From Bacillota bacterium (lineage in GTDB: Bacteria > Sysuimicrobiota > Sysuimicrobiia > Sysuimicrobiales > Segetimicrobiaceae): 40,049 nt of DNA. A program made the translations under genes and the position numbers. Below, piece by piece: positions 2,065 through 32,165 of this stretch (the stretch's first letter is position 1; each line of letters starts with the position of its first letter). Where the stretch lies: the NCBI GenBank assembly GCA_021324975.1, contig JAJPIA010000113.1, forward strand, positions 1 through 40,049, written 5' to 3'. The notes under the pieces are model-generated. The model saw only the letters and a program-made list of their open reading frames with translations. It was not told the origin of the DNA and searched no databases.

Positions 2065-2123
2065 GCTGTTCGAGTTGGGCCGTGCGGGATGGGCGGCGCT
2101 CAGGGGGGACTGGTGCACTGACG

Positions 2124-3794
2124 ATGGATCGATCGGGTGAACGGAGCAAGCCCAACACCGTGCCGCGGCGGATGAGCCGGCGGGCATTCTTGCGGCAGGC
2201 GGGGGCCGGTCTCGCGGCCGGAGCGCTCGGGAGCGCGACGGTCCCGTGGGTGTGGAAGCGGGCCGACGCGGCGGCGACCCCCGACCGCGGCACCTTCATC
2301 GTCGGCGGCAACGCCCAGTTCCGGACGCTGGATCCCGGACGCACCATCGAAGTGACAGGAATGATGGTCGAGAAGGCCACGTACGACACGCTCGTGACCT
2401 TCTACGGCGAAGACCTCCGCACACCGCGGCCGCACCTCGCCACGGCCTGGAAGGCGAGCGCCGATGCCCGCACCTTCACGTTCACCCTGCGGCAGGGCGT
2501 GCGGTTCGCGAGCGGTAACCCGCTCACGTCGGCGGACGTCAAATGGTCCTTCGATCGGGTGCTCAACCTCAAAGCCAACACGTTGTTTCTCTTTGACGGC
2601 GTTACGGGCGTGGACGCGCCCGATCCGCACACGGTGGTCATTCGGACCAAGGCGCCGCAACTGTCCCTCATCCCGATCCTCTCGCATCCGGGCTTGGGCA
2701 TCCTCGACAGCAAATTGATGATGCAAAACGGTGGGGACGCGGGGCCGGACGCGAAGAACGCGGATCACGCCGAGCCGTACCTGTTCCAGCACTCCGCCGG
2801 CAGCGGGCCGTTCATGATCCAAAGCTACACGGCGGGACAGGAACTGGTATTGGTGCGCAACCCGAACTTCTGGGGCAGCCGGGCGAAGCTCGACCGGATC
2901 GTGTTGCGCCACGTGCCGGATCCCGTGACGCAGGCCCTCCAGGTGGTGCGCGGCGATCTGGACATGGCGTCCAACATCGGGCCCGACCAACTGCCCGCGC
3001 TCCGCCGGGCGCCGAACGTCGTCGTGCAAACCAGCCCGTCGGCGACCACGTTCTACGTGCTGATGAACAACGCGTCGGACGTCGGCGGTCCGTTCACCAA
3101 TCCGAAGGTGCAGCAGGCCGTGCGGTACGCGCTGGACTACGACGGGATCATGCGCATCGCGGGGCCCGGCGCGGTCCGGCTCGCCGGCGTGATCCCGACC
3201 CTCCTACCGGGCTCGCTGCCGTCGTCGGCCGCCACAAAGACGGATCGCGACCGGGCGAAGAGCCTCCTCAAAGAGTCGGGACTCGCGAGCGTCAGCGGCA
3301 CGTTTTCGTACTCCAGCGATGCCATCCAGTTCGGGATCCCGACCGCGCTGCTGGCCCAGAAGATCCAGTCCGATCTCGCCACGGTCGGCATCCAGCTGAA
3401 GCTGGACGGCCTGCCGACGGTGACATCGCTCACACTGTACCGCGGCGGCAAGGACCAGTTCGGCGTGTGGGGATGGGCCGCCGACTATCCCGACGCCACG
3501 GACTTCCTCGTATATGCGCCGGGGCGGGTGGTCGGCAAGCGCGCGGGGTGGCTCGCCTCCGCGTCGCCGGACGCCGGGAAGCTCGCGGCGCTCGCGGACG
3601 CCGCGGAGGCGGAGGTCGACGACAAGAAGCGCGTGGCCCTGCTGCAGCAGTTCGAGCGAACGCTCGCGCAGATCGGGCCGTACGCGCCGCTGTTCCAACC
3701 CGCGATCCCGTACGCGTTCCGTTCCAACGTGCAGGGGGTGACCTACAACAGCGTCTGGGCGACGGATCTCTATCCGATTCGCAAGACCTCGTAG
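2124..3794 (+). CDS. ABC transporter substrate-binding protein, family 5 (Opp/Dpp type), copy 1
   Basis: Extracytoplasmic receptor of an oligopeptide/dipeptide/nickel-type importer (SBP_bac_5), 556 residues. The N-terminus carries a twin-arginine signal (MSRRAFLRQ, Arg19-Arg20) and a hydrophobic region, implying Tat export of a folded protein. The mature part shows the family layout: an N-terminal lobe with LDPGRTIEV, then RFASGNPLTSADVKWSFDRV near 130-150, SGPFMIQSY near 230, VRNPNFW and VQQAVRYALDYDGI near 330-345. The C-terminal end reads GVTYNSVW. The start ATG 2124 is preferred over an in-frame upstream start with no ribosome site; ATG 2172, just before the RR motif, is an alternative. 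A second, clearly paralogous binding protein follows at 3876, then two permeases. The ligand cannot be read from sequence; family members bind peptides, opines, metals or glycosides. Confidence 0.93.
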   Translation: MDRSGERSKPNTVPRRMSRRAFLRQAGAGLAAGALGSATVPWVWKRADAAATPDRGTFIVGGNAQFRTLDPGRTIEVTGMMVEKATYDTLVTFYGEDLRTPRPHLATAWKASADARTFTFTLRQGVRFASGNPLTSADVKWSFDRVLNLKANTLFLFDGVTGVDAPDPHTVVIRTKAPQLSLIPILSHPGLGILDSKLMMQNGGDAGPDAKNADHAEPYLFQHSAGSGPFMIQSYTAGQELVLVRNPNFWGSRAKLDRIVLRHVPDPVTQALQVVRGDLDMASNIGPDQLPALRRAPNVVVQTSPSATTFYVLMNNASDVGGPFTNPKVQQAVRYALDYDGIMRIAGPGAVRLAGVIPTLLPGSLPSSAATKTDRDRAKSLLKESGLASVSGTFSYSSDAIQFGIPTALLAQKIQSDLATVGIQLKLDGLPTVTSLTLYRGGKDQFGVWGWAADYPDATDFLVYAPGRVVGKRAGWLASASPDAGKLAALADAAEAEVDDKKRVALLQQFERTLAQIGPYAPLFQPAIPYAFRSNVQGVTYNSVWATDLYPIRKTS

Positions 3795-3811
3795 GCTACG
3801 CACTTCACCAG

Positions 3812-3850
3812 CCCCGGGGAGCACGGTGCCGACGCCGGTGTTCCCCGGGG
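3812..3850 (+). repeat. Inverted repeat between the tandem binding-protein genes
   Basis: CCCCGGGGA at 3812-3820 and TCCCCGGGG at 3842-3850 are perfect complements, enclosing 21 bases that can extend the stem (CACGG against CCGGTG). No T-tract follows. A processing or RNA-stabilising hairpin, or a leaky terminator that raises expression of the first binding protein over the rest of the operon, is more likely than a strict terminator. Confidence 0.6.
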
Positions 3851-3875
3851 CGTACGCTCGCAAAGGGGGACGTGC

Positions 3876-5537
3876 ATGGCAAGCGTAGGACCAGGTCGGG
3901 AGGCCGAGACGGCGGGACGCCTGCGCCTGCGCCGGCGGACATTGTTGCGCGCGGCGGGCGCGGCGGCCGGGATCGCGGTGGTGGGCCGCGCCGGCGCGGG
4001 AGATACCGCGCATGCGGCGGCACCGTCCGGCGGGGCCACGCTCATCATGGCGCCGAGTTTCGTCATCCGCAGCCTCGATCCCGGGCACACGCTCGAGCCC
4101 GACGGCGAGATGGTGACGCACGCGTGCTACGACGCCCTGGTGACGTTCGATGGGTCGGACCTCTCGACCCCTAAACCGCACCTCGCGACGTCGTGGAAGG
4201 TCTCGGGCGGCGGCCGCCTGTACACGTTCACTCTCCGGCCGAACGTGCGATTCGCGAGCGGCAATCCCCTGACCTCGGCGGACGTCAAGTGGTCGTTCGA
4301 CCGCGTGATGAACCTCCAGTCCAACCCGGCATTCTTCCTGGCCAACGTCGAGGAGGTCCAGGCGCCCGATCCGCAGACGGTGGTGTTGCGCCTGCGCACG
4401 CCGCAACCCTCGATCATTCCGATCCTGTCGAACGGCGCGCTCGGGATCGTGGACAGCAAGGTGGTCATGGCGCAGGGCGGCGACGCCGGCCCGGACGCGA
4501 AGACGAAAGACCACGCAGAAGCGTGGCTGCAATCGCACTCCGCCGGCAGCGGGCCGTTCATGATCCAAAGCTACACGCCGACGCAGGAGCTCGTGCTGGT
4601 CCGCAACCCGACCCACTGGCGGGCCCCGGCCCGGATGGAGCGGATCCTCCTCCGTCACGTGCCCGAGGCGTCGACGCAGGCGTTGCAGCTGGAGCGGGGC
4701 GACCTCGACGTGGCGATGAGCCTGGGCCAGGAGAACCTCGGGACGCTGCGTCGCGTGCCGGGCGTGACGATCCAGACCAGCCTGGTCGCGACGTCGTTCG
4801 TCATGATGGTCAACATGGATTCGTCGCTCAGCGGCCAGCTGAGCAATCCCAAGGTGCTGCAGGCGATCCGCTACGCGCTGGACTACGATGGCATCCTGGC
4901 AATCGCCGGGCCCGGCGCGCAGCGGATGGCCGGGGTGATCCCGAACGACCTGCCCGGCGCGCTCGACCCGCGCGAAGCCGTGAAGACCGACCTCGCCAAG
5001 GCCAAGGCGATCCTCAAGGAGGCCGGCCTCGCGGAGGTCAAGGGACGGCTCATGTTCGCGAGCGATTCCACGTCCTACGGGATCCAGTACTCGCTCCTGG
5101 CCCAGAAGATCCAGTCCGACCTCGCGGCCGCGGGGATCACGGTGGCGTTGGACGGCCTGCCGGGGACGATCGAGCTCGGCCAGTACCGGGCGGCCAAGGC
5201 GCCCGCGCTGTTCGGCGGGTACGCGGCGGATTACGCGGATGCCACCGACTTCCTCGTGTACCTGCCGGGCCAGCTTGTCGGTAAGCGGATGAACTGGCCG
5301 GCCAACGCGAGCCCGGCCGCGCAGGAACTGGCGCAGTGGGGTGACCAGGCTACGCAGGAGGCCGATCCCAAGGCTCGGGTCACGCTCCTCCGCAAGATCC
5401 AGCGGCGCCTGCTCGAGATCGGACCCTATGCGCCCCTGTTCACGCCCGCCCTGCCGTTCGGCTACCGATCGGATCTACGCGGCGTGACCTACAACAGCGT
5501 CTGGGAGGTCGACTTCTACACGATCCGCCGCGCCTAG
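3876..5537 (+). CDS. ABC transporter substrate-binding protein, family 5 (Opp/Dpp type), copy 2
   Basis: 553-residue paralogue of the preceding gene. It keeps the same blocks in the same order (RFASGNPLTSADVKWSFDRVMNL, HSAGSGPFMIQSYT, RYALDYDGILAIAGPGA, GVTYNSVW), and parts are identical at DNA level. The N-terminus has a Tat-like signal (RLRLRRRTLLRAAG, arginines around 17-21) ending in an alanine-rich cleavage region (AHAAAP). ATG 3876 follows GGGGGACGTGC, a reasonable ribosome site. It stands 81 bases after copy 1 and 28 bases before the permease gene. Two receptors feeding one permease pair would widen the ligand range; this is inferred from the arrangement. No family-specific ligand motif is visible. 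Confidence 0.93.
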   Translation: MASVGPGREAETAGRLRLRRRTLLRAAGAAAGIAVVGRAGAGDTAHAAAPSGGATLIMAPSFVIRSLDPGHTLEPDGEMVTHACYDALVTFDGSDLSTPKPHLATSWKVSGGGRLYTFTLRPNVRFASGNPLTSADVKWSFDRVMNLQSNPAFFLANVEEVQAPDPQTVVLRLRTPQPSIIPILSNGALGIVDSKVVMAQGGDAGPDAKTKDHAEAWLQSHSAGSGPFMIQSYTPTQELVLVRNPTHWRAPARMERILLRHVPEASTQALQLERGDLDVAMSLGQENLGTLRRVPGVTIQTSLVATSFVMMVNMDSSLSGQLSNPKVLQAIRYALDYDGILAIAGPGAQRMAGVIPNDLPGALDPREAVKTDLAKAKAILKEAGLAEVKGRLMFASDSTSYGIQYSLLAQKIQSDLAAAGITVALDGLPGTIELGQYRAAKAPALFGGYAADYADATDFLVYLPGQLVGKRMNWPANASPAAQELAQWGDQATQEADPKARVTLLRKIQRRLLEIGPYAPLFTPALPFGYRSDLRGVTYNSVWEVDFYTIRRA

Positions 5538-5565
5538 CGGCGGCTCCGGCCAGGCGGCTTCGGCC

Positions 5566-6585
5566 ATGAATCTGCAGACGTACGTGGGGCGGCGCGTGCT
5601 CGTCTTGCCCGCGATGATCCTGGGCATCACGCTGCTTACGTTTGTGCTGTCGCACGCCGTGCCGTCCGATCCCGTCGCGGCCAACCTGGGGGATCAGGCG
5701 GCCGCGGATCCCGCCATCGTGGCGGCGTTCAAGCACCGCTGGGGTTTGGACCGGCCGCTGCCCGAACAGTATCTCGTGTATCTCCGCAACCTGCTCCACG
5801 GCGACATGGGCGTCTCGATCACCACGCACCAGCCGGTGCTGACCGACCTCTCCCAGCACCTGCCGGCCACGATCGAGCTGGCCACGGCCGCGATGCTGCT
5901 GAGCCTGCTCCTCGGCATTCCCCTGGGCATCTTTTCTGCGGTGCGGCGGGACAGCGTGGTCGACCAGATCGGCCGGGGCGTGTCCCTCCTCGGGGTCTCG
6001 ATGCCCGTGTTCTGGCTGGGGCTCGTGGCCCTGTTCGTGTTCTACGCGCGGTTGGGGTGGGCGCCGTCGGCGGGGCAGCTGAGCCCCCGTGTGGCGCTGC
6101 CGCCGTTCGTGACGGGGTTCGTCGTCGTCGACGCGCTGCTTGCCGGCCAGACCGGCACCGCGACGGACGCGATCGCGCACCTGGCGCTGCCCGCGCTCGT
6201 CCTGGCCTCGTCCGCGGTCGGCATCATCACGCGCATGATGCGGGGCAGCATGCTCGAGGTTCTGGGCGAAGATTATGTGCGGACCGCGCGAGCCAAAGGC
6301 CTCGCCCCGCGCCGGATCACGTTTCGCCATGCCGCCCGCAACGCGCTGCTCCCGGTGATCACCGTGATCGGCCTCAGCTTCGGGAGCCTTCTGTCCGGCG
6401 CGGTCGTGACCGAGACGGTGTTTGCGTGGCCCGGCCTGGGATCGTATGCGTTTCTGAGCGCGACCTCCCTCGACTTCCCGGCGATCATGGGCGTGGGCAT
6501 CGTCGTGGCCACCGTCTACATCGTGGTCAACTTGTTCGTCGACGTCGCCTACGCGATGGTCGACCCGCGGATCCGGATGGGCTGA
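5566..6585 (+). CDS. ABC transporter permease, DppB/OppB type (first system)
   Basis: Inner-membrane channel subunit of the importer served by the two preceding binding proteins, 339 residues. The N-terminus YVGRRVLVLPAMILGITLLTFVLSHAVPSDP is replaced here by its key features: an RR pair, one membrane helix, then the SHAVPSDP turn and RWGLDRPLPEQYLVY, all standard for DppB. The cytoplasmic EAA loop is GEDYVRTARAKGLAPRRI around 228-245, the contact site for an ATPase subunit. The protein ends DVAYAMVDPRIRMG, the usual DppB tail. It has about six predicted membrane segments. The stop is followed three bases later by the GTG of the partner permease. An insert around 170-200, between helices, is somewhat long for the family. 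Confidence 0.95.
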   Translation: MNLQTYVGRRVLVLPAMILGITLLTFVLSHAVPSDPVAANLGDQAAADPAIVAAFKHRWGLDRPLPEQYLVYLRNLLHGDMGVSITTHQPVLTDLSQHLPATIELATAAMLLSLLLGIPLGIFSAVRRDSVVDQIGRGVSLLGVSMPVFWLGLVALFVFYARLGWAPSAGQLSPRVALPPFVTGFVVVDALLAGQTGTATDAIAHLALPALVLASSAVGIITRMMRGSMLEVLGEDYVRTARAKGLAPRRITFRHAARNALLPVITVIGLSFGSLLSGAVVTETVFAWPGLGSYAFLSATSLDFPAIMGVGIVVATVYIVVNLFVDVAYAMVDPRIRMG

Positions 6586-6588
6586 GCG

Positions 6589-7467
6589 GTGGCCGAGGAC
6601 GCGTTGCGGCCGGTCGTCCGGCGCCGCGGGGGCCGATCGCTCGTGGTGCCGCGATCGTTCGCCCGGTCGCCGCTGACGGTCGGCTCCGTGGTGGTGGTTG
6701 CCGTGTGGCTCGCGCTCGCCGCGGCGGCGCCCGCGATCGCTCCGCACGGCCCGCTGGCTCAGGACATCGCAAACCGGCTCGCACCGCCCGGTCCGGCGCA
6801 CTGGTGCGGGACCGATCCGCTCGGCCGGGACATCCTGAGCCGTGTGCTGTACGGAGCCCGGCTGTCGATCCCCGTCGGCATCGCTGCGGTGGCGCTGGCG
6901 GTCATGCTCGGCACGCTGATCGGCAGCGTGGCCGGCGCGGCCGGGGGCATCGTGGACGAGGCGATCATGCGCCTGACCGACCTGATGCTCGCGTTCCCCA
7001 CGGTGATCCTGGCCATGATCATCTCCGCGGCGCTCGGCGCCGGCATCCGCAACGCGGTGATCGCCATCATGGTGGCCTGGTGGCCGACGTACGCGCGCTT
7101 CGCGCGCGGCCTCGTGATCGGGGCACGCGACCGAGAGTATGTGGAGGCCGCGCGCGCCGTCGGCGCGTCGCCGCTCAGGGTGTTCCTGCGGCACGTGCTG
7201 CTCAACATCTTGTCGCCGATCGTCATTCTCGGCACGCTCGATGTCGGGCGAGCGATCCTCACGTTCGCGTCGCTGAGCTTCCTGGGGCTCGGGCCGCCGC
7301 CGCAGATTCCCGAGTGGGGCTCGGAGATCGCGGCGGGGCGCGACTACCTCGACCAGTGGTGGATCGCCACGTTTCCGGGCCTCGCGATCTTGACGCTGGT
7401 GGTCGCGCTCAACGTCGTGGGAGACGGGCTGCGCGACGCGCTGGATCCGCGACTGCGGAAAGCGTAA
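6589..7467 (+). CDS. ABC transporter permease, DppC/OppC type (first system)
   Basis: Second channel subunit, 292 residues. It has the DppC signature GTDPLGRDILSRVLYGARLSI near residues 74-94 and the EAA loop REYVEAARAVGASPLRVFLRH near 182-202. The C-terminal block FLGLGPPPQIPEWGSEI and ending LRDALDPRLR are also typical. A GTG start three bases after the dppB-like stop implies tight coupling. The usual DppD and DppF ATPase genes do not follow; the next genes are two small unknown proteins and then a terminator. The complex must therefore recruit ATPases encoded outside this window. Confidence 0.95.
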   Translation: MAEDALRPVVRRRGGRSLVVPRSFARSPLTVGSVVVVAVWLALAAAAPAIAPHGPLAQDIANRLAPPGPAHWCGTDPLGRDILSRVLYGARLSIPVGIAAVALAVMLGTLIGSVAGAAGGIVDEAIMRLTDLMLAFPTVILAMIISAALGAGIRNAVIAIMVAWWPTYARFARGLVIGARDREYVEAARAVGASPLRVFLRHVLLNILSPIVILGTLDVGRAILTFASLSFLGLGPPPQIPEWGSEIAAGRDYLDQWWIATFPGLAILTLVVALNVVGDGLRDALDPRLRKA

Positions 7468-8194: not shown

Positions 8195-8710
8195 TCAGTC
8201 GAGGCGCTCGAACATCAGCATATTGTAGTCCAAATTCTCCGCGGTGACCCCGAGCTGACGCAACATCGCCATCACCTGCGCGCGATGGTGCACCTCGTGA
8301 AACAGGAGTTGGGCGGCCAGGCCACCTGCGGTGGCCCGAAACCGCCGCGGCGGGTCGAACAACCGGCTGGTGTACTCCACCCGGCGGCTGCCGTCCCCGA
8401 GATCGCTCAACGCCCGGCGCGTCCGCGGGTCCAACGCGGACCATGCGGCGACGAACGGCTCGAGTTCCGGCAATTTGCCCACCGAGAACGGGTTGTCGGC
8501 CGCGTTATACTCGCGACCCTCGAGCCGCTGCGTGTACCCCCACTGGGCCGCTGCGGTGTGGAGGAGTGTGGCGCGGATCGAGCCCATCCCGAACGGGAAG
8601 GACCGCGTGTACGCCTCAGCGGGCTGGCTTCCGACCCAGCCTAACAGGGTCGTGCGCGCTTTGCACAGATAGTCGAAGTACTGCGCCAGATCGACGGTGG
8701 ATGTACTCAT
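8195..8710 (-). CDS. DinB family (DfsB-like) metal-binding protein
   Basis: 171-residue four-helix-bundle protein of the DinB/YfiT superfamily. The superfamily includes thiol S-transferases (for example mycothiol- and bacillithiol-dependent) and many uncharacterised members. The three metal-binding histidines are His51 (LLHTAAAQWGY) and His138/His142 (LLFHEVHHRAQ). The start ATG at 8710 is chosen because the domain begins there (DLAQYFDYLCKARTTLL); the longer upstream frame is Arg/Gly-rich and lacks family similarity. The ribosome site is weak. It diverges from the M24 gene at 8904 and converges on the small-protein genes. DinB was named for DNA-damage induction in Bacillus, but no LexA-like site is apparent here. 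Confidence 0.88.
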   Translation of the reverse strand: MSTSTVDLAQYFDYLCKARTTLLGWVGSQPAEAYTRSFPFGMGSIRATLLHTAAAQWGYTQRLEGREYNAADNPFSVGKLPELEPFVAAWSALDPRTRRALSDLGDGSRRVEYTSRLFDPPRRFRATAGGLAAQLLFHEVHHRAQVMAMLRQLGVTAENLDYNMLMFERLD

Positions 8711-8903
8711 AGTAGTGCCGTCATTCGGCTTCGCCCCTCGCTTCCCTCCGTGGGCGCACGCCCGGTCCCGGCGGGCGTCGGTCCACCCCGGCGGTGCGCC
8801 ACGGATACGGAGGACACGCTCACCGGCGCGCGGAAATCCCACGCGGGTCCGTGCCGGCTCTCGAGCGCATCCTCGTGTTTTGGAGTTCTCCGGAGGTGAA
8901 TCG

Positions 8904-10106
8904 ATGGGGTATTTGAGCCGCCGCGTGTTTCACGAGCGTCTCGCCCGCATTCGGCGTGCGCTCGCAGACGCGGATCTCGCCGGCCTCTGCGTCTTGACGC
9001 CCGAAAACTTCCTGTACGTCTCCGGGTACTTCCTCGACGTGCAACCGTGGGAGCGGCCCGTGGCCGCGGTCATCCCGCGCGATGAGGACCCGTTTCTCGT
9101 CATGCACGAGCTGTCCACCAACCACGTGCGCTACGCGACGGAACACCACTCGATGTGGATCACAGACGTCCACTTCTACGCGGAGCACTACCGGCTCCAG
9201 CACCGCACCTATATGACGCCGCAGTGGCCGCAGATGGTCGCGGACCTCTTGCGCCGCAGGGGCCTGCGACGCGGGCGGCTCGGCGTGGACCACGCCGCCG
9301 GTCCAATCGCCGACGTGCCGTCGTGGCTGCCGGGCCTCGAACTCGTGCCGGCCGGGCGGCTCCTGCGGGAGATGCGCGAGGTCAAGGACGAGGAGGAGTT
9401 GACCCTCGTCCGCCAGGGCGCGGAATTGAGCGACTGGGGCCAGGCCCGGTACCGGGAGCACCTGGAGCCGGGCCGGCCGCTCGCCGAGGTCGACACCCTC
9501 GTCGCGCACGAGATCTGCAAGGAGGCGATCCGCCGCTGGCCGGATTACAAGGTGGAGATCCGCGTGGCCGGGCTGACCGGCCCGAACTCGGCGTGCCCGC
9601 ACGGCATCAGCGGCAACTACGGGCAGGTCATCGAGCGCGGGCACGGGATCGTCAACGTCATCATCCCGCGGCTGAACGGGTACGTCTGCGAGAACGAGCG
9701 GACGTTCTTCGTCGGCAGCCCGAGCAGAGAGCAGGCCGCGGCATTCCAGGCCGCCGTGGAGGCCCAGGAAGCTGCGGCGGCCGCGTTCGTCGCCGGGGCC
9801 ACCATGGCGGACGCGGACGCGGCGGCGCAGCAGGTCTTCGAGCGGCACGGCTACGGCGAGTGTGTGATCCACCGGACCGGTCACGGCATCGGACTCGCCG
9901 GCCACGAAACGCCGGACGACATCGCCTTCAACTTCCGGCCGCTCGTCGAGAACGAAGTGTTCAGTTGCGAGCCGGGGATCTACCTCTACGGCGTCGGCGG
10001 GTTCCGGCACGACGACACCGTGATCGTCAAGAACGACCGTCCGGAGATCACGACCAAGTACCCGCGGGACCTCGAGTCGCAGACGATCCCGGTCAAGGAC
10101 GACTGA
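8904..10106 (+). CDS. M24-fold C-N hydrolase, creatinase-like (Xaa-Pro peptidase family)
   Basis: 400-residue two-domain 'pita-bread' protein: a creatinase N-terminal domain (about 8-150) and an M24 catalytic domain (about 170-390). Only part of the five-ligand dimetal site of true M24 peptidases is present. The first Asp is absent (NVIIPRLNGY), the second is Glu263 (YVCENERT), His327 (TGHGIGLAGHE) and Glu356 (CEPGIYLY) are kept, and the last Glu is Asp370 (FRHDD). His233 (CPHGISG), Glu263 and Glu356 line up closely with the catalytic His232/Glu262/Glu358 of metal-free creatinase, and Arg51 may match Arg64. A creatinase- or ectoine-hydrolase-type amidohydrolase is therefore more likely than an aminopeptidase. 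ATG 8904 follows GGAGGTGA, a strong ribosome site. The binding-protein gene of an importer follows 38 bases later, so its substrate may be the imported compound. Confidence 0.88.
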   Translation: MGYLSRRVFHERLARIRRALADADLAGLCVLTPENFLYVSGYFLDVQPWERPVAAVIPRDEDPFLVMHELSTNHVRYATEHHSMWITDVHFYAEHYRLQHRTYMTPQWPQMVADLLRRRGLRRGRLGVDHAAGPIADVPSWLPGLELVPAGRLLREMREVKDEEELTLVRQGAELSDWGQARYREHLEPGRPLAEVDTLVAHEICKEAIRRWPDYKVEIRVAGLTGPNSACPHGISGNYGQVIERGHGIVNVIIPRLNGYVCENERTFFVGSPSREQAAAFQAAVEAQEAAAAAFVAGATMADADAAAQQVFERHGYGECVIHRTGHGIGLAGHETPDDIAFNFRPLVENEVFSCEPGIYLYGVGGFRHDDTVIVKNDRPEITTKYPRDLESQTIPVKDD

Positions 10107-10144: not shown

Positions 10145-11731
10145 ATGTCGACTGAGCACGACGGATCCGATCCACGATCGCCGCGGGGCCGGCGGGTTAC
10201 CAGACGGGCATTCCTCAAGGCCGCGTCGGCGGCGGGTATGGCCGCCGGTGGCCTTGCGCCGGGTTTCGCGCCGGCGCCCGCGCGCGCCCAAGGGCATAAC
10301 CAGGTAACGATCGGGATCGGCAGCGAGCCGCTCACGCTGCTCGGCGCGACGATCGTGGACTGGACGACGAACGCGCAACTCGAGAACGTGTACGATCTGT
10401 TGTTCCAGCGCGATCCGAAGTCGGAAAAGATCATCCCGTGGCTCGCGACCGGCTACAAGATCATCGACGACAAGACGTGGGAGCTCTCGCTGCGCAAGGA
10501 CGTCCGGTTCCACGACGGCGAGCCCTTTGGCGCCAAGGCCGTGAAGTTCACCTTCGATTACCTGCTCGATCCGAAGAATAAGACGCACTACCTACCCCGG
10601 TTCAAGACGATCACGGGGTTGGAGATCGTCAACGACCACACGGTGCGGGTCCACACCTCGCAGCCGTTTCCCGCATTTCTCGACCAGATATCGCTGCCCG
10701 GACCGTTCATGCTCGCGCCGGAGTACGTGCAGAAAGTGGGGATCGAGTACGCTGCCGCGCATCCAATCGGCACCGGTCCGTACCGGTTCAAGGAGTGGGT
10801 CCGCGGGCAATCGTTGACGCTCACGAAAAATCCATCGTACTGGGCGGAGGTGCCGGCGATCGACACCGTCGTCTTCTCGGTGATCCCCGAGTTTAGTGCG
10901 CGGCTCGCCGCGCTGCTCTCGAGCCAGATCGACATCATGAAGGACGTGCCGCCCCAGGCCGTTGACACGGTCAATCGCAGCGGACGCGCCGCGGTCCGGA
11001 CGACGGTCAGCTCCCGGATCGACTACCTGGCCCTGGAGACACTGCATCCGGGACCGATGCAGAATGTCAAGGTTCGGCAGGCGATCAACTACGCGATCGA
11101 CGTGGACCAGCTGCTGCACTCGGTCCTGAGCGGCCAGGCGACGCGGATCTGTGGCTACGTCGGCCGGTATGATGCCGCGTTCGATCCGGCGGTCGCGTGC
11201 TACGGGTACGATGCCAAGAAAGCCGAACAGTTGCTCCGTGAGGCGGGCTACGACCCGAGCCGGCTCACGTTGACCTTGGACACGCCGAACGGACGATACC
11301 CGCTCGACAAGGAAGTCTCCGAGGCCATCGCCGCGCAGCTCAACAAGCTCGGGATCACGGTGCACGTCCAGGTCAACGAGTGGCGTGACCATCTCGACAA
11401 GATCATCAATCGCAAGGCCGGCGACATGTTCTTCCTGGGCTGGGGCCCCGATCTTGCCCCAATCGGCACCGTGGACCAGTTGTTCATGGGGGCGGAGACG
11501 TACAGCAGCTTCGATGACGCCCACACGGACGAGATGATCGCCAAGGCCGTGCAGATCGTCGACCCGGCGACGCGGAACGCCGCGTTCCGGAAGATCCAGG
11601 AGGCCCTCCACCCGATGGCGCCGTGGGTGCCGCTGTGGAATCAGCACGACCTGTACGGCGTCGCCGCCTGGGTCAACTGGACACCACGCCCCGACGAGAA
11701 GCTCTGGATGTGGGAAGCGAAGCCCAAGTAG
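10145..11731 (+). CDS. ABC transporter substrate-binding protein, family 5 (second Opp/Dpp system)
   Basis: 528-residue SBP_bac_5 protein. The Tat signal TRRAFLKAASAAG (Arg20-Arg21) is followed by a hydrophobic segment and a likely cleavage site at APARAQ. Family blocks include LENVYDLLFQRDP, RKDVRFHDGEPFGAKAVKFTFDY, GTGPYRFKEW, LTKNPSYW and VRQAINYAIDVDQLL. The C-terminal half has the MFFLGWGPDLAPIGTVDQLF segment typical of peptide/opine-type binding proteins. ATG 10145 follows an extended purine-rich ribosome site (GGGAGGGGGG). It is only 38 bases after the creatinase-like hydrolase and is probably cotranscribed with it. The permease genes follow after a 330-base gap. Confidence 0.93.
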   Translation: MSTEHDGSDPRSPRGRRVTRRAFLKAASAAGMAAGGLAPGFAPAPARAQGHNQVTIGIGSEPLTLLGATIVDWTTNAQLENVYDLLFQRDPKSEKIIPWLATGYKIIDDKTWELSLRKDVRFHDGEPFGAKAVKFTFDYLLDPKNKTHYLPRFKTITGLEIVNDHTVRVHTSQPFPAFLDQISLPGPFMLAPEYVQKVGIEYAAAHPIGTGPYRFKEWVRGQSLTLTKNPSYWAEVPAIDTVVFSVIPEFSARLAALLSSQIDIMKDVPPQAVDTVNRSGRAAVRTTVSSRIDYLALETLHPGPMQNVKVRQAINYAIDVDQLLHSVLSGQATRICGYVGRYDAAFDPAVACYGYDAKKAEQLLREAGYDPSRLTLTLDTPNGRYPLDKEVSEAIAAQLNKLGITVHVQVNEWRDHLDKIINRKAGDMFFLGWGPDLAPIGTVDQLFMGAETYSSFDDAHTDEMIAKAVQIVDPATRNAAFRKIQEALHPMAPWVPLWNQHDLYGVAAWVNWTPRPDEKLWMWEAKPK

Positions 11732-12061
11732 CGCCGGCCGCGTAGTGCCTCATCTCGCATGTGCGATGAGGGTAGACGGGCCGGGCGGGCCTGGCCGAAG
11801 CGGTGTTGGTCTCGGCCCCCATGAATCCAATCCAATGAGGGCCTCGACCCCTCCGGCGGCTTGGGCCGCCTCCGGTCGACGCCCGCGATGCTCACTGCTG
11901 CGCGGCATCACTTTACTTGCGCTGCGGACGAAGCGAAGGGACGGCATTGGTCAGGCGCCGGGCGCTTTGGCCCACGCCGTAGGCCTCGTGGAGCGGAAGA
12001 CAGGTCCGCCCGGCGCCAGCCCTTGCCGAAGCAATGCGATGACGCACTAGAGCCCGGCCGG
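11732..12061 (+). other. 330-bp non-coding gap with hairpins inside the second importer operon
   Basis: No gene is supported here on either strand. A bulged stem is formed by CCTCAT (11748-11753) plus CGCA (11756-11759) with TGCG (11762-11765) plus ATGAGG (11766-11771), 17 bases after the binding-protein stop. A second stem is GGCGGC (11855-11860)/GCCGCC (11865-11870) with a TTGG loop. Neither has a T-tract. Their position suggests transcript processing or attenuation that keeps binding-protein mRNA more abundant than permease mRNA; this is inference. The gap does not match any riboswitch consensus I know. Confidence 0.5.
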
Positions 12062-12979
12062 ATGACCAGATACGTTGCCGGTCGCGCGGGGCAGGCGATG
12101 GCCGCGGTGTTTCTCGCGCTGACCATCGTCTTCGTCCTCGTCCGCATCACCGGGGACCCGGTCATCCTGTTCCTGCCGCAGGACGTGCAGCCCAAGGACA
12201 TCGCGTACTTTCGCCACCTACTGGGCTTCGACCGGCCGCTGTGGCAACAGTACCTGTCGTTCCTGGGAGGCGCCGTGCGCGGTGATTTCGGGCAGTCGCT
12301 CCGGTACCGGGCGCCGGCGCTGCCGCTCGTGCTCCATCGAGTCCCGGCAACGTTTCAGCTCGCCGTGACGTCGCTCGGGATCGTCGCGTGTCTCGCGGTA
12401 CCGATCGGCATCGCGTCAGCGGCGCGGCGGGGTACGCTCGTCGATCACTTGGGTATCATGCTCACCTCGCTCGGCCAGGCGATCCCCGGGTTCTGGTTGG
12501 GTCTCATGCTGATCTGGGTGTTCGGCGTGTGGCTGCGGTGGCTGCCCGTCTCCGGCTACGGGGACTGGACGCACTTTGTGCTCCCGAGCCTGACGCTGGC
12601 CGCGTTCTATGCCGCGCAGGTCGCCCGCATTACGCGATCGTCGGTCTTGGACGCGCTCGGTCAGGACTATGTGCGCACCGCCCGGGCAAAGGGGCTGCAC
12701 GAGCCCGGCGTGCTGGGCCGCCACGTACTCAAGAACGCCGCGATTCCGATCGTCACGGTGTTCGGCCTCAACGCCGGCCAGCTGTTGGGCGGCGCGGTGG
12801 TGACCGAGACGATCTTCGCCTGGCCGGGCTTGGGGCAGTATATCCTCAACGCGCTTCTGGGGCGAGACTTCCCGGTCGTGATGGTTGGCGTCTTTCTGAC
12901 CTCGGTGATCTACGTCGGCCTCAACTTCCTGGTGGATGTCTCGTACGCCTGGCTCAATCCTCAGGTGCGGTTTGGCTGA
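12062..12979 (+). CDS. ABC transporter permease, DppB/OppB type (second system)
   Basis: 305-residue channel subunit with about six membrane helices. The N-terminus has the DppB pattern: one helix, then RITGDPVILFLPQ, then LLGFDRPLWQQYLSFLGG. The EAA loop is GQDYVRTARAKGLHEPGVLGRH, followed by GGAVVTETIFAWPGLGQY, a hallmark of this subunit. The end is DVSYAWLNPQVRFG. ATG 12062 is used because the conserved sequence starts there; the longer upstream frame runs through the non-coding gap and is unlike the family. It overlaps or abuts the partner permease. Confidence 0.94.
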   Translation: MTRYVAGRAGQAMAAVFLALTIVFVLVRITGDPVILFLPQDVQPKDIAYFRHLLGFDRPLWQQYLSFLGGAVRGDFGQSLRYRAPALPLVLHRVPATFQLAVTSLGIVACLAVPIGIASAARRGTLVDHLGIMLTSLGQAIPGFWLGLMLIWVFGVWLRWLPVSGYGDWTHFVLPSLTLAAFYAAQVARITRSSVLDALGQDYVRTARAKGLHEPGVLGRHVLKNAAIPIVTVFGLNAGQLLGGAVVTETIFAWPGLGQYILNALLGRDFPVVMVGVFLTSVIYVGLNFLVDVSYAWLNPQVRFG

Positions 12980-13850
12980 GTTCGTGGGGGCGGCGGCGCC
13001 GGGCTGGCGGGCTGCCCGGCGGGGTGGAGGACTGGCCGCTCTTTCCCGCAGCCGGACCGGCATGCTCGGCGCCGCGATCGTCGCTGCGGCGGTGCTCTGC
13101 GCCACGTTCGCGCCGGTGCTCGCCCCGTACAATCCCACCCTGGCCGAGTTTGCGGCGACGCTCCGCCCGCCAACGTCGGCGCATCCGTTCGGCACGGATC
13201 AGTTGGGCCGCGACGTGCTGTCGCGCGTGATCTTCGGGGCCCGAATCTCGCTGCTCGTCGGTGCGGTGACGGTGTTCGTGGCAGGGGTGATCGGCTGTGG
13301 GTTCGGCCTGCTGGCGGGTTACCTCGGCGGGTGGCTGGGCGCGGCTGTCATGCGGCTTGCCGACGTTCAGCTGAGCTTTCCCTTCATCCTGCTGGCGCTG
13401 ACGATCAACGCCGTCCTCGGCGCCGGGTTCCGCAACATCATGCTGAGCCTGGCCGTGGCCGGGTGGCCCCTCTACGTGCGGGTCGTGCGCGGGGAGATCC
13501 TCGCGCTCCGCCATCGGGACTACGTCCAGGCTGCCGTGGCGACCGGGGCCGGCAGCGGCCGCGTAATGCGGCGACACGTCCTCCCCAACGTGGCCACGCC
13601 GATCATCGTCGTGAGCACGCTTCAAGTCTCGCAGTTCATCATCGCCGAAGCCACGATCAGCTTCCTCGGATTCGGGATTCAACCGCCGACCGCCGCGTGG
13701 GGCACGATGGTCAGCGACGGGCGGAACTATATCTTTTTCGCCTGGTGGCTGTCCGCGTTCCCCGGCGCCGCACTCGCCCTGACCGCGCTCGGGGTCAACC
13801 TCCTCGGCGACTGGCTACGCGACACGCTCGATCCCCGCCTGCGCACGTAG
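12972..13850 (+). CDS. ABC transporter permease, DppC/OppC type (second system)
   Basis: About 292 residues. The signature GTDQLGRDVLSRVIFGARISLLVG, given here by its core GRDVLSRVIFGARIS, lies near residues 77-91. The EAA loop RDYVQAAVATGAGSGRVMRRH and the block ISFLGFGIQPPTAAWGTM follow, ending LRDTLDPRLRT. No ATG fits the beginning. TTG 12972 (overlapping the upstream stop by eight bases) or GTG 12984 (just after it) are the candidates, and neither has a strong ribosome site, so initiation probably depends on coupling. No ATPase gene follows; the next gene is an FAH-family hydrolase 162 bases downstream. Confidence 0.92.
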   Translation: MAEFVGAAAPGWRAARRGGGLAALSRSRTGMLGAAIVAAAVLCATFAPVLAPYNPTLAEFAATLRPPTSAHPFGTDQLGRDVLSRVIFGARISLLVGAVTVFVAGVIGCGFGLLAGYLGGWLGAAVMRLADVQLSFPFILLALTINAVLGAGFRNIMLSLAVAGWPLYVRVVRGEILALRHRDYVQAAVATGAGSGRVMRRHVLPNVATPIIVVSTLQVSQFIIAEATISFLGFGIQPPTAAWGTMVSDGRNYIFFAWWLSAFPGAALALTALGVNLLGDWLRDTLDPRLRT

Positions 13851-21392: not shown

Positions 21393-22382
21393 TTACGAGC
21401 CTCCGAACACGAAGGCGATCGCGTCGCCGCTCGTTGCGGTGCGGTTGCCCGTCAGCGGATAGGTGATGATCCAGCCGTCGATGGGGCTCGTCACGGTCTC
21501 CACGGCTTCGCCGAAGACATCGTAGAGGACGGCGATCGTGTCGCCGGTCCTGACGCTCGACCCCAACGGCCTCAGCGGCCGGACCAGCCCGCCCTTGTCG
21601 CACGTCAGGTAGTGGCGGTTCGTGAGCCGCGCGGCAATCACCGGAACCTCGGTCTGCGGCTCGAGGGCGCCGTCCAGCATGCCCAGGGCGCGCATCACAT
21701 TCATCACGCCCACCACGCCGGCGCGCACGGACGGCTCCTCCCACACGTATCCTCCAGAGAGCTCCACCGTGAGCGCCGGCTTGCGGCGCTCGATCGCGGC
21801 GTCCTGGAGGGTGCCGGTCAACCCGAGCTGTCCCACGGGCCCGACCGCGACGCTCAGGCCGAACGCGTCCGCGAGAGTCCACTGACCGTCCCAGGCGGGT
21901 CCCGCGCCCCCCGTGCGCACGATGGTGAAGTTGACCGCGCCGATCGCGTTGGAGTGGATGTCGAGGACGGCGTCGGCGCGGACGACGCCCTGGTGAAACA
22001 GATCGTGCGCGATGCGTTGCGTCAGAGTGCCCTTGGCGTCGCCAGGAAAGACGCGGTTGATGTTGACGCCGTCGTGAAGCGTGAACCGCGTGGAGGTCAG
22101 GAACGCGACAGGGTGCTGCACGGGTGCGGCAACCACCGTTCCCCGGAGCGCCCGAGGGTCGAGCCGCTCGCGCACCACGCGCCGGATCACCTCGCAGCCC
22201 GGGATCTCGTCGCCGTGCACCGTGGAGCCGACCCACAGGACAGGGCCGGGTGCCGCGCCGTGTGCGATGATGACCGGGATGCGCACGCGCGTGCCGTCGC
22301 GCAGATACGCGCTCTCGAGGTACCCTGTGCCGATCGCGCCGGAGTCGGCGCGCGCGGTGCCCAGTTCGAACGCTGCGCTCAT
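21393..22382 (-). CDS. Succinylglutamate desuccinylase/aspartoacylase family deacylase
   Basis: 329-residue zinc-dependent hydrolase of the AstE/AspA (M14-like) family, which cleaves N-acyl amino acids or related amides. Zinc ligands are His56 and Glu59 (STVHGDEIPG) and His143 (LDIHSN). The substrate-side DGVNINRVFPG (104-114) and the probable catalytic Glu207 (LTVELSGG) are present. The C-terminal 90 residues form a beta-rich lipoyl-like domain (GDTIAVLYDVFGEAVETV). ATG 22382 follows AAAGGAGGATCGATCACG, a strong ribosome site. It is the last gene of a minus-strand operon headed by a polyamine-type importer, 34 bases after the permease. A natural reading is that the importer brings in an acylated amine or amino acid that this enzyme deacylates; that is inference. 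Confidence 0.9.
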   Translation of the reverse strand: MSAAFELGTARADSGAIGTGYLESAYLRDGTRVRIPVIIAHGAAPGPVLWVGSTVHGDEIPGCEVIRRVVRERLDPRALRGTVVAAPVQHPVAFLTSTRFTLHDGVNINRVFPGDAKGTLTQRIAHDLFHQGVVRADAVLDIHSNAIGAVNFTIVRTGGAGPAWDGQWTLADAFGLSVAVGPVGQLGLTGTLQDAAIERRKPALTVELSGGYVWEEPSVRAGVVGVMNVMRALGMLDGALEPQTEVPVIAARLTNRHYLTCDKGGLVRPLRPLGSSVRTGDTIAVLYDVFGEAVETVTSPIDGWIITYPLTGNRTATSGDAIAFVFGGS

Positions 22383-27828: not shown

Positions 27829-29436
27829 ATGAAGGGACGCGTGCGTGCATGGGACGGTTGTGTCGCGCTGGCGATGGCCGTCGCGATCGTGACCGCGTTG
27901 GCCGGCCCCCGTTTGACGGCGGCCGCGGTTGCGCCGAGTGTCGGGGGGACGTTTGTCCTCCCGGTGCAACAAGATCCAAAGACGCTTGACGCCCCGAAGA
28001 TGACACTCGCGGACGAGGACGAGATCTCGGGGTACATCGGCGCCGCGCTGACCGCGATCGCGCCCGACGGCCGGGTCGTGCCCTGGCTCGCCGACCGATG
28101 GGCCTGGTCCCCGAACGGGAAGACGCTGACGTTCCACATCAAGTCGGGCGTCACGTTTCACAGCGGCCGGCCGATGACCGCTCAGGACATCAAGGCGACC
28201 TTCGAGCGCGACATCGATCCGGCGACCGCGTCGCCGTATGACCGCGATTTCCTCGCGTCCGTGGCGTCGATCGACGCCCCGGACGCCTCGACCCTGGTGC
28301 TGCACCTTCGGGCGCCGGACGGAGGGTTGTTGGAGACGCTCGCGAGCCCGGGCTACCTGCAGCCCGCGGATCCCTCGGCGCTCAGCAAGTGGGGTGCGCA
28401 ATACGCCCAGCACCCCTCGAGCGTCGGGCCGTTCATGCTCAAGGAGTGGCTGTCCGGCCAATCGGTGACGCTCGCGCGGAATCCCGCGTACCGGTGGGGC
28501 CCGCCGTTCGACCATCCGGGGCCCCCGTACCTGGATCAGCTGGTATTCCGCGTCATCCCGCAGCCGACGTCACAGATGGCCGCGTTTGAATCAGGGGCGC
28601 TGTCCGGGTTGTTGAACGTGCCGCCGGAGCATTGGGACGAATTTGCCAAGAATCCCAAGTACCACTTTTTCCAGACGGTCGGCCCCCGCATCTACTACGT
28701 GGAGATGAATCTCCACAACCCGATGTTTCAGGACCTCCGGGTACGGCAGGCCGTGAACTATGCCATGGACCGCGGGGCGATTGTCGCCAGCGCCTTCAAC
28801 GGCCACGCGGTGGCGAACTGGGCGCCGTTCAGCCCCCTTCTCGCCGGCTACTGGAAGGGCACGGAGAACGCTTACCGGTACGATCCCCAGCGTGCGCGCC
28901 AGCTGCTCGCAGAGGCCGGGTTCAGCTACCAGGGGGGCACGCTGCAAAAGGCCGGGCGTCCCGTGACGCTGCGGCTCATAACGCGTTCGTATCAGCCGTT
29001 CACGGATCTCGCCCAGCTGGTCCAGGCCCAGCTGCAGCAGGTCGGGATCGCGACGACGATCACCGCGTACGAGGTGAGCACGACCCTCGCTCGGCTCAAG
29101 GCCGGGGACTACGACGTGTCGGTGTCGAGCTATGCGTGGGATTCGGATCCCGGTCTTGTGTTGCGGCTCGTCTTGCAGCCGAGCGGCTCGCTGGACTACT
29201 CCGGGTACAACAACCCGGGGTTCAACGATCTGCTGCGTCTCTACCAGACGACGGTTTCGCCGACGGTGCGCGGTCAGCTCATGCAGCGCATCCAGGCGCT
29301 GTTCGTCAAGGACGTCCCGTGGGCGATGCTCGCGGCCGAGAATAACGGCCGCGTCGTCCAGGGCGGGTTTGACGGGGTTGTGCTGAACCACGCCACGGGA
29401 GAGCTCCTGGTCGAGAACGCGTACGTCCACAAGTGA
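27829..29436 (+). CDS. ABC transporter substrate-binding protein, family 5 (third Opp/Dpp system)
   Basis: 535-residue SBP_bac_5 protein. Unlike the other two systems it has an ordinary Sec-type signal peptide (basic MKGRVR, hydrophobic run about 11-27, ARLTAAA-like end near 33) and no twin arginine. Family blocks include LTFHIKSGVTFHSGRPMTAQDIKATFERD, shortened here to its core FHSGRPMTAQDIKATFE, then VGPFMLKEW, LARNPAYRWG and VRQAVNYAMDRGAIV. The ATG used is 27829. A second ATG at 27824 sits at better spacing from GGGAGGGAGC but encodes only Met-Ala-stop and overlaps the true start. The stop overlaps the start of a CocE-type hydrolase gene, and two permeases follow. Confidence 0.93.
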   Translation: MKGRVRAWDGCVALAMAVAIVTALAGPRLTAAAVAPSVGGTFVLPVQQDPKTLDAPKMTLADEDEISGYIGAALTAIAPDGRVVPWLADRWAWSPNGKTLTFHIKSGVTFHSGRPMTAQDIKATFERDIDPATASPYDRDFLASVASIDAPDASTLVLHLRAPDGGLLETLASPGYLQPADPSALSKWGAQYAQHPSSVGPFMLKEWLSGQSVTLARNPAYRWGPPFDHPGPPYLDQLVFRVIPQPTSQMAAFESGALSGLLNVPPEHWDEFAKNPKYHFFQTVGPRIYYVEMNLHNPMFQDLRVRQAVNYAMDRGAIVASAFNGHAVANWAPFSPLLAGYWKGTENAYRYDPQRARQLLAEAGFSYQGGTLQKAGRPVTLRLITRSYQPFTDLAQLVQAQLQQVGIATTITAYEVSTTLARLKAGDYDVSVSSYAWDSDPGLVLRLVLQPSGSLDYSGYNNPGFNDLLRLYQTTVSPTVRGQLMQRIQALFVKDVPWAMLAAENNGRVVQGGFDGVVLNHATGELLVENAYVHK

Positions 29437-31181
29437 CGACGCCGGGCGCGCGCATGGGCCACGACGAGCCCGGGGTGAGCCGCACGTGGCTCGACGTCCG
29501 GGTGCGGATGCGAGACGGCGTGGAGCTCTCCGTCGACGTCTTCCTGCCTCCGCTCGGAACGGGCGTGGCGGGCCGCTGGCCTGCCATCCTCCAACGCACC
29601 CCATATGACAACGCCCGCCAGTTGTACCCCGGGTTCTACTGGGTCGAGGTGGCGCGGTACTTCGCGGCGCGCGGCTACGCGTTCGTCAGTCAGGACGTGC
29701 GCGGGCGCGGGGACTCCGACGGGGCGTGGCACCCGTTCGTGGGCGAGGCGGCGGACGGCCACGACACGGTGGAGTGGATTGCGCGCCAGCCCTGGTCGAA
29801 CGGCCGCATCGGGATGATGGGCGGCTCGTACGGCGGGCTCGTCCAGTGGCTCACCGCCCGCGAGCGCCCCCCGCATCTCGTGACGCTCGTCAGCACGGCC
29901 GCGGCCGGCCGCATTATGGAGGAGCTGCCCTACCGGAACGGCAAGCTGCGCCCGCCGTGGGCGATGTGGTGGCTCAACATGGTCGGTGGCCGCACGGTGC
30001 AGGCCCAGGAGCTGCTCGACTGGCCGCGTATCATCCGGGCCCGCCCGGTCAGGGACATCGACCTCGCTGCGGGGCGCCGCAACACGGTGTGGCGGGAATG
30101 GCTGGCGCATCCCACGCTCGACGACTACTGGCGGCAGATGAGCATGCTCGACCGGTTCGGCGAGATCGATCTCCCCGTGCTGCACATCACCGGCTGGTTC
30201 GACGGCGACCAACTGGGCCAGCTGTACTATTGGCGCGAGATGGCGCGGCACTCGCCGGCGCGGGACCGCCAGTACCTGCTCGCCGGACCGTGGGATCACC
30301 GAGGCACGCGCACGCCCGAACCGCGTTTCGGGGGGTTGGAGTTCGGGGCGGCCGCGGTCGTGGACATGAACGCGATCCATTTGCGCTGGTTCGACTACTG
30401 GCTCCGGGGCAAGGGCGACGCGCCGACCGATTTTGCGCCGGGCACGCGCAGCCGCATCTTCCTGATGGGCGAGAACCGCTGGCGGGACGATCCCTCGTGG
30501 CCCCCGCCGGCCGCGATCTCGCAGCGCTGGTACTTCCGCAGCGGCGGACGAGCCAATACCGCCGCGGGCGACGGCCGGCTCGACCCGGAGCCGCCGTCCG
30601 GCGACGAGGAGGCCGACCGGTACACGTACGATCCGGAGCACCCGACGCCGTCCCACCGCAACCCCGACGAGCCGCCCGGGACTCCGCCGGATCTCGACGA
30701 ACAATGGCTCTTGGAGCGCGAGGACGTACTGGTCTACACGTCGGACGCGCTCGGCGCGCCCATTGAGCTCACGGGTGTTCCGGTCGTGAGCCTGGAGGCG
30801 GCGACGGATGCCCCCGATACGGACTTTGCCGCCACGCTCTATGACGTCTTTCCGGATGGGCGGAGCATCGCGTTGTGCGCCGGCATCCTCCGGGCGTCGT
30901 ACCGTCACGATCCGGGCCACCCGGATCCCACGCCGCTCGAGCCCGGCCGCTCCTACACCTATCGCATCGAGCTCACCGCCACGAGCAACGTGTTTCTGCC
31001 GGGCCACCGGATCCGCGTCGCGGTGATGTCGGCGCGCTGGCCCGACTATGACCGCAACCCCAACACGGGCGCACCGCCCGGGGACGACGAGGCGACGCGG
31101 CCCGCCACACAGCGCGTGCTGCACGACCCGGCGCACCCAAGCCACGCCCTCATCCCGGTCGTGCCGCGCGGACCGGCATGA
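29433..31181 (+). CDS. CocE/NonD family hydrolase (X-Pro dipeptidyl-peptidase S15-like)
   Basis: 582-residue serine hydrolase. An alpha/beta-hydrolase domain (about 15-320) carries the nucleophile Ser132 (MGGSYGGLVQW), Asp257 (ITGWFDGD) and His289 (GPWDHRG), the expected catalytic triad. The C-terminal jelly-roll domain (about 340-575) contains DVLVYTSDALGAPIELTG and FLPGHRIRVAVMSARWPDYDRN, typical of the S15/CocE fold. Members hydrolyse esters (such as cocaine), acylated peptides or beta-lactams. No signal peptide is seen, so it is cytoplasmic. GTG 29433 overlaps the binding-protein stop; ATG 29454 is an alternative. Its place between the binding protein and the permeases strongly suggests it processes the imported compound. 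Confidence 0.93.
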   Translation: MTTPGARMGHDEPGVSRTWLDVRVRMRDGVELSVDVFLPPLGTGVAGRWPAILQRTPYDNARQLYPGFYWVEVARYFAARGYAFVSQDVRGRGDSDGAWHPFVGEAADGHDTVEWIARQPWSNGRIGMMGGSYGGLVQWLTARERPPHLVTLVSTAAAGRIMEELPYRNGKLRPPWAMWWLNMVGGRTVQAQELLDWPRIIRARPVRDIDLAAGRRNTVWREWLAHPTLDDYWRQMSMLDRFGEIDLPVLHITGWFDGDQLGQLYYWREMARHSPARDRQYLLAGPWDHRGTRTPEPRFGGLEFGAAAVVDMNAIHLRWFDYWLRGKGDAPTDFAPGTRSRIFLMGENRWRDDPSWPPPAAISQRWYFRSGGRANTAAGDGRLDPEPPSGDEEADRYTYDPEHPTPSHRNPDEPPGTPPDLDEQWLLEREDVLVYTSDALGAPIELTGVPVVSLEAATDAPDTDFAATLYDVFPDGRSIALCAGILRASYRHDPGHPDPTPLEPGRSYTYRIELTATSNVFLPGHRIRVAVMSARWPDYDRNPNTGAPPGDDEATRPATQRVLHDPAHPSHALIPVVPRGPA

Positions 31182-31234
31182 TGCGGGCCCGCCGCGTTGC
31201 CGCGCCGGCGCGCTCGGTGGAGTGATCGCGCCGG

Positions 31235-32152
31235 GTGTACGCGCTTCGACGCATCGCGCTGTTCGTGCCGGTCTGGGTCGGGGTGGCGGTCCTCACGTTT
31301 GCCATCATGCGTCTCATCGGCGGCGACCCGGCCCAGGCCCTGTACGGCGGAAGCGCGCTCAGCGTCGCAGCGCTGCGTGAAGTGCACCACCGGTTGGGAT
31401 TGGACCAACCCGTGCTGGCGCAACTCGCCGGGTTTCTGCTCGGCGCGGCGCGCGGCAATCTCGGTGACTCGTGGCAATCAGGGACGCCGGTCGCGGTGAT
31501 CCTGGCCCAGCGGTTTCCCTACACGATAGAGCTTGCGCTCACCGGGCTCGGCCTCGGTACGCTCCTCGGCCTGGGGCTCGGCGTCATCGCCGCGACCCGG
31601 CAGGGGTCGTCCCTCGACCGCGCCCTGCTGGTCGGATCGCTCCTGTTCCTGTCGGTCCCTGGCTTCTGGCTGGGTATCCTCCTCATCTATCTGTTTTCGG
31701 TCGATCTGGGTTGGCTCCCCGTGGCCGGCGCGGCGGGGTGGCAGTCGCTCGTCATGCCGGCGGCCGTGCTCGCGGTCACCGGAGCGCCCGTGGTCGCGCG
31801 CGTCGCGCGGGCCGGCATGCTCGAGGTGCTGCGGGCCGAATACGTCCGGACGGCGCGGGCGAAGGGGCTCGGTGAACGCATCGTGCTCCTGCGCCACGCG
31901 CTCCGCAATGCCCTCAACCCGATTATGACAATCGTGGGGTTGCTCTTCGGAAACCTCCTGGGCGGCGCCCTCATTGTGGAACAGGTCTTCTCCCGGCCCG
32001 GAATCGGCACGCTGGCCGTGCAGGCGATCTTCGCGCGAGACTATCCCATGATCCAGGGCATCGTGCTGTACACGTCGACCGTGTTCCTCGTCCTCAACCT
32101 GCTCGTCGACCTCGCGTACTCGCTCGTGGATCCCCGGATTCGCTTCGCTTGA
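31235..32152 (+). CDS. ABC transporter permease, DppB/OppB type (third system)
   Basis: 305-residue channel subunit. Its first helix is followed by RLIGGDPAQALYGGSAL and HHRLGLDQPVLAQLAGFL, the DppB pattern. The EAA loop is RAEYVRTARAKGLGERIVLLRH, then GGALIVEQVFSRPGIGTL and the tail DLAYSLVDPRIRFA. The start is GTG 31235, preceded by GGTGGAGTGATC. There are 53 bases between it and the hydrolase gene. It pairs with the DppC-type gene 13 bases downstream. Confidence 0.94.
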   Translation: MYALRRIALFVPVWVGVAVLTFAIMRLIGGDPAQALYGGSALSVAALREVHHRLGLDQPVLAQLAGFLLGAARGNLGDSWQSGTPVAVILAQRFPYTIELALTGLGLGTLLGLGLGVIAATRQGSSLDRALLVGSLLFLSVPGFWLGILLIYLFSVDLGWLPVAGAAGWQSLVMPAAVLAVTGAPVVARVARAGMLEVLRAEYVRTARAKGLGERIVLLRHALRNALNPIMTIVGLLFGNLLGGALIVEQVFSRPGIGTLAVQAIFARDYPMIQGIVLYTSTVFLVLNLLVDLAYSLVDPRIRFA

Positions 32153-32165
32153 CGGCCGCCGACGC

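Follow-up and report, generated by a model that had tools for sequence, protein, structure and literature searches.

Several described enzymes share the M24 (pita-bread) fold and differ in their metal centres. The two-metal set of M24 ligands is Asp, Asp, His, Glu and Glu, and the tight metal site in prolidase consists of the second Asp, the His and the two Glu residues. Creatinase and the ectoine hydrolase DoeA act without metal. In E. coli PepQ, an Xaa-Pro dipeptidase, metal binding is tighter at the His-containing site (PMC4213023), and M24-fold non-enzymes of the Ebp1 type are also known (PMC3888471). The DMSP lyase DddP puts the fold to a non-peptidase use while retaining all metal ligands (PMC4108388), unlike the group described here, termed ENERT after its motif. 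The member analysed is encoded in a window of 40,049 nucleotides (the whole stretch of DNA examined), with the following features:

8904..10106, + strand: predicted M24-fold hydrolase of the ENERT group, 400 aa, with His233, Val252 (first Asp lost), Glu263, Glu265, His327, Glu356 and Asp370
9660..9704, + strand: codons 253-267, covering the strand without its metal ligand and the motif E263-N-E265-R-T267
10145..11731, + strand: family-5 solute-binding protein (SBP), 528 aa, with a twin-arginine type leader (RRAFLK)
11861..12979, + strand: DppB/NikB-type permease, whose start may be internal (domain from residue 68)
12936..13850, + strand: DppC/NikC-type permease
2082..7467, + strand: second, separate Dpp-type importer set upstream (two SBPs, DppB, DppC)

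The open reading frame at 8904-10106 starts with ATG, preceded by a strong ribosome-binding sequence (GGAGGTGA), and its product matches the Peptidase_M24 (134 bits) and Creatinase_N (49 bits) profiles. An AlphaFold2 model built with 72 homologues has a mean pLDDT of 95.6 and a pTM of 0.93, and the domain match, the model and a foldseek search of that model all place the pita-bread fold in this protein, which is a real member of the M24 fold. Among the foldseek matches, prolidases lead by E-value (4EGE, 1.2e-32) and creatinases by TM-score (0.85-0.86; 1CHM, 1KP0, 7YTO), with DoeA/EutD (6TWJ, 6TWK) at 0.80; the nearest solved relatives by sequence search are proline dipeptidases (8e-33). The likeness in length to creatinase that a preliminary description had pointed out holds at 400 aa, as does the likeness in fold. 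No signal peptide was seen in the protein, and an NCBIfam scan placed it in no model at its cut-off, peptidase models included. Around the gene, no riboswitch or other known RNA was found, and promoter and terminator scans gave chance-level results only. The DinB-family gene upstream of it (8195-8842, − strand) is also retained in most genomes of the family.

Active-site columns were assigned by MAFFT alignment with creatinase (reference sequence verified against 1CHM), DoeA and 12 M24 paralogues of the same genome, and by hhalign profile comparison. In both, the register against canonical M24 proteins is gap-free around the motif: the first Asp is replaced by Val252, the second by Glu263 and the last Glu by Asp370, and His327 and Glu356 are kept, leaving two of five ligands unchanged. 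The earlier proposal that three of the five are altered is thereby upheld, and family-wide. Asn251 was considered as the replacement for the first Asp and rejected, as Val252 occupies the gap-free column, next to an almost invariant Asn251. The same proposal took Glu263 for the creatinase catalytic Glu, which is two residues out of register and was likewise rejected: the Glu263 column holds creatinase Ala260, and creatinase Glu262 aligns with Glu265 in three alignments. The Glu265 column is occupied by Thr in peptidases (within T-R-T) and by Glu262 in creatinase (within ALERT). As had been suggested, creatinase His232 and Glu358 have His233 and Glu356 as their aligned partners, but these are not diagnostic, being present also in the genome's ordinary M24 paralogues. 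The creatinase triad His232/Glu262/Glu358 thus has counterparts in His233/Glu265/Glu356, of which Glu265 is the only creatinase-like signature. Of the creatinase-type active site first proposed, the acidic residue (as Glu265) and the loss of an intact two-metal centre stand, and the identification with Glu263 does not.

These substitutions are not peculiar to one genome. Among the 72 aligned homologues, Glu263, Glu265, His233, His327, His334 and Glu356 are each present in 72/72, position 252 is hydrophobic (I, V, L, M or F) in all, and position 370 holds Asp in 70, the other two having Ser. Because the same changes are fixed across the homologues, the alignment marks them as a family trait rather than chance or sequencing error. 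ENERT proteins occur in Sysuimicrobiota-like bacteria, Thermomicrobiota, Bacillota, Acidobacteria and Acetobacteraceae, and in Rhizobium, Burkholderia, Cupriavidus, Achromobacter and Pseudomonas. Where annotated, they are named Xaa-Pro peptidase, a label that the predicted active site contradicts. No report on the group was found in the open-access literature, itself weak evidence of absence, and ENERT is a widespread, apparently uncharacterised branch of the M24 fold.

A sister M24 paralogue with the motif ELERT occurs in the same genome, apparently split over two contig ends (C99:8954-9811 and C93:1-378 of assembly G000). Its full-length relatives (L137-L147) have Gly at the first Asp, Glu at both motif positions and the His and Glu kept; their fifth ligand is Ser, as in more distant E-x-E-R-T proteins. 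In the tree, ENERT and ELERT are joined (86/96) and the position of creatinase is not fixed; ENERT and creatinase do not group, yet a topology uniting them as one clade is not rejected (AU p 0.41). Plasmids of Neorhizobium and Microvirga (L019:4911-6098, L021:4911-6098) encode a distant M24 protein with AENERT, Cys for His233 and Ser for Asp370.

The preliminary description also placed a binding protein and permeases directly after the enzyme gene, and they are there: the SBP starts 39 bases beyond the M24 stop codon, and two Dpp-type permeases follow. The segment 10145-13850 therefore encodes the family-5 SBP and the B and C permeases of a Dpp/Opp-type importer, and no ATPase gene of its own was found within it. 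Eleven oligo_HPY ATPase matches exceed the cut-off, all on other contigs of the genome. Three separate Dpp-type sets lie within the 40 kb (2082-7467, 10145-13850 and 27829-32996). No ATPase gene was identified in any of the three, which probably rely on common ATPases from other loci. The set at 2082-7467 is probably outside the conserved unit, because it is retained only within the genus. Downstream genes for an FAH-family hydrolase, an MFS protein and a DRL-type protein were considered as members of the unit and rejected, being absent beyond the genus.

The order M24-SBP-DppB-DppC is retained in four other genomes of the family at 74-88% identity (M24 80-88%), and in G004 and G006 it persists though the upstream importer and the downstream genes were not detected. 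In order-level relatives and Thermomicrobiales the order is SBP-DppB-DppC-M24, with the importer on the enzyme's other side; identity is 39-50% for the SBPs and about 45-63% for the permeases. Two of these relatives have the ELERT sister next to the same importer in divergent orientation. SBPs encoded next to the genome's other M24 paralogues are 28-31% identical, well under the 39-50% of the linked SBPs. An SBP at least 49% identical is found in 12/14 relatives with the enzyme vs 1/133 without it (Fisher p 9e-15, not corrected for kinship). Proteobacterial loci have TctC-type, Pot-type or Liv-type parts instead of the Dpp set, a change of importer type with the enzyme retained. Overall, an importer part lies within 2 kb of the enzyme in 63/90 loci; as a control, 7/13 of the genome's other M24 genes likewise have importers close by, so adjacency alone is weak evidence, and the argument is carried by the conserved set and the co-occurrence. 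On these grounds the enzyme-importer link is real. Two distant genomes (G126, G139) have a related SBP and permeases with this M24 gene not beside them. In the nearest relative (G002; L022:10083-10430), the importer genes between the M24 and FAH-family genes are gone down to about 100 bases of the SBP, with the M24 gene intact and no N in the record, reflecting either a deletion or an assembly fault.

The fold, the ligand losses and exchanges fixed throughout the group, and the conserved importer linkage are best accommodated, in our estimate with somewhat better than even likelihood, by a cytoplasmic hydrolase without the standard two-metal M24 centre that acts on a C-N bond of a compound delivered by the Dpp-type importer. 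The importer would bring in a small, probably carboxylate-bearing compound, and the pita-bread-fold hydrolase would then cut an amide, lactam or amidine C-N bond in it. By analogy with their creatinase counterparts, His233, Glu265 and Glu356 may do the acid-base and substrate-holding work. We infer from the same evidence that the protein is an active hydrolase, and the linkage suggests that its substrate, or a precursor of it, enters through the importer. The prolidases that lead by sequence and by foldseek E-value speak against this account, as do the importers near other M24 genes, the lack of a kinship correction in the co-occurrence count, the two distant genomes whose importer set stands apart from this M24 gene and the importer remnant in the nearest relative. 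As residues 263, 327, 356 and 370 of the tight metal site remain acidic or His, a metal-free mechanism is no more than possible; Ser at the fifth ligand in the ELERT and distant E-x-E-R-T relatives argues against a full metal site, and a two-metal peptidase is disfavoured.

The strongest alternative, one we consider unlikely, is a one-metal hydrolase in which Glu263, His327, Glu356 and Asp370 hold the tight site by an Asp/Glu swap, only the weaker second site having gone with the first Asp, and an amide or peptide is cut by one metal-bound water. The near-complete conservation of these four residues (72/72 for the first three, 70/72 for Asp370) is in its favour, as is the loss of most of these columns from metal-free creatinase (Ala260, His376) and DoeA (Pro, Tyr, Met, Thr). 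The tighter binding at the His-containing site of PepQ (PMC4213023) is also consistent with it, and the Dpp importers would suit peptide-like substrates, as would the gamma-glutamyltransferase (3 loci) and the relative of amidohydrolase-type Xaa-Pro dipeptidases (4 loci) found as neighbours. Glu265 in place of Thr, however, adds an acidic residue at the creatinase position, and Ser for Asp370 in the E-x-E-R-T relatives shows the fourth ligand to be dispensable across the wider group. A complete metal site is therefore unlikely in that wider group; ENERT proteins themselves retain the full acidic set and could hold one metal ion. An ordinary Xaa-Pro dipeptidase that tolerates the ligand swaps and receives peptides through the Dpp-type importer is very improbable: prolidases (PepQ; 4EGE, 5CDL) are nearest by sequence and share His327, His334, Glu356 and His233, and hhalign scores are stronger to two canonical same-genome paralogues (6.7e-45) than to creatinase (8.3e-24), but three of the five metal ligands are changed group-wide with the first Asp hydrophobic in every homologue, Glu265 replaces Thr, and no NCBIfam peptidase model reached its cut-off. 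A pseudoenzyme role, with binding of the imported compound leading to signalling or regulation, finds support in Ebp1-type proteins (PMC3888471), a foldseek match to Spt16 and a linked GAF-domain-like small protein in many proteobacterial loci, but is very improbable given full conservation of the whole active-site set, beyond the expected need of a bare binding pocket.

For a hydrolase lacking the standard two-metal centre, comparison with creatinase and DoeA bears on the possible substrate. The linked uptake-and-hydrolysis route of the preliminary description keeps its genetic tie to the importer, but the creatine and ectoine guesses that came with it are not supported. The protein shares with creatinase the fold, the length and the loss of the first metal Asp, and differs in having Glu263 and Asp370 where creatinase has Ala260 and His376; identity is about 20-25%. 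Creatinase Arg64 and Arg335, which we take to be substrate-binding residues, fare differently: Arg64 aligns with Arg51, also present in canonical M24 paralogues, and Arg335 has no aligned Arg, the conserved Arg345 lying near that column in a region with an insertion. With DoeA the protein shares the M24 fold, a dismantled metal centre and the His of the PH motif, but has other residues at nearly every active-site column: Glu263, Glu265, His327, Glu356 and Asp370 correspond to Pro, Ser, Tyr, Met and Thr in DoeA. It scores 60.8 bits against the DoeA model TIGR02993 (NCBIfam), whose cut-off of 613 is reached by no gene of this genome, and doeB, doeC, doeD and doeX were not found beside it; an ectoine pathway was accordingly rejected. 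A distant DoeB relative, an AstE/AspA-type protein (21393-22382, − strand, opposite to the M24 gene; 92 bits vs a cut-off of 403), lies 11 kb off.

Other recurrent neighbours include a small GAF-like protein linked to the M24 gene in 21 loci (L055:10179-10667 and 20 more), with a Pfam match just under the cut-off; in proteobacteria its gene often follows the M24 gene directly. The Rhizobium neighbours also include a C45 acyltransferase/hydrolase, an ATP-grasp ligase and an amino acid kinase. Together with the two peptide-related neighbours above, these fit amide or peptide-like chemistry and point to no single compound. More speculatively, and on balance doubtfully, ENERT may be a third independent turn of M24 to a non-peptidase hydrolase beside creatinase and DoeA, with paired glutamates (E-x-E-R-T) in its active site and a link to importers of several types in many bacterial phyla; its substrate would then be a common natural amide or amidine.

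The substrate question is directly testable in cultured carriers (Rhizobium tropici CIAT 899, Cupriavidus metallidurans CH34 and Alicyclobacillus), and its answer would reveal what ENERT carriers import and how an M24 centre gets rebuilt. Plasmid b of Rhizobium tropici also encodes a DoeA relative (L020:508-1722, − strand; 407 bits vs the cut-off of 613) in the same island as the ENERT homologue, adjoining an Lrp-type regulator, a carboxymuconolactone decarboxylase-family gene and an aminotransferase.
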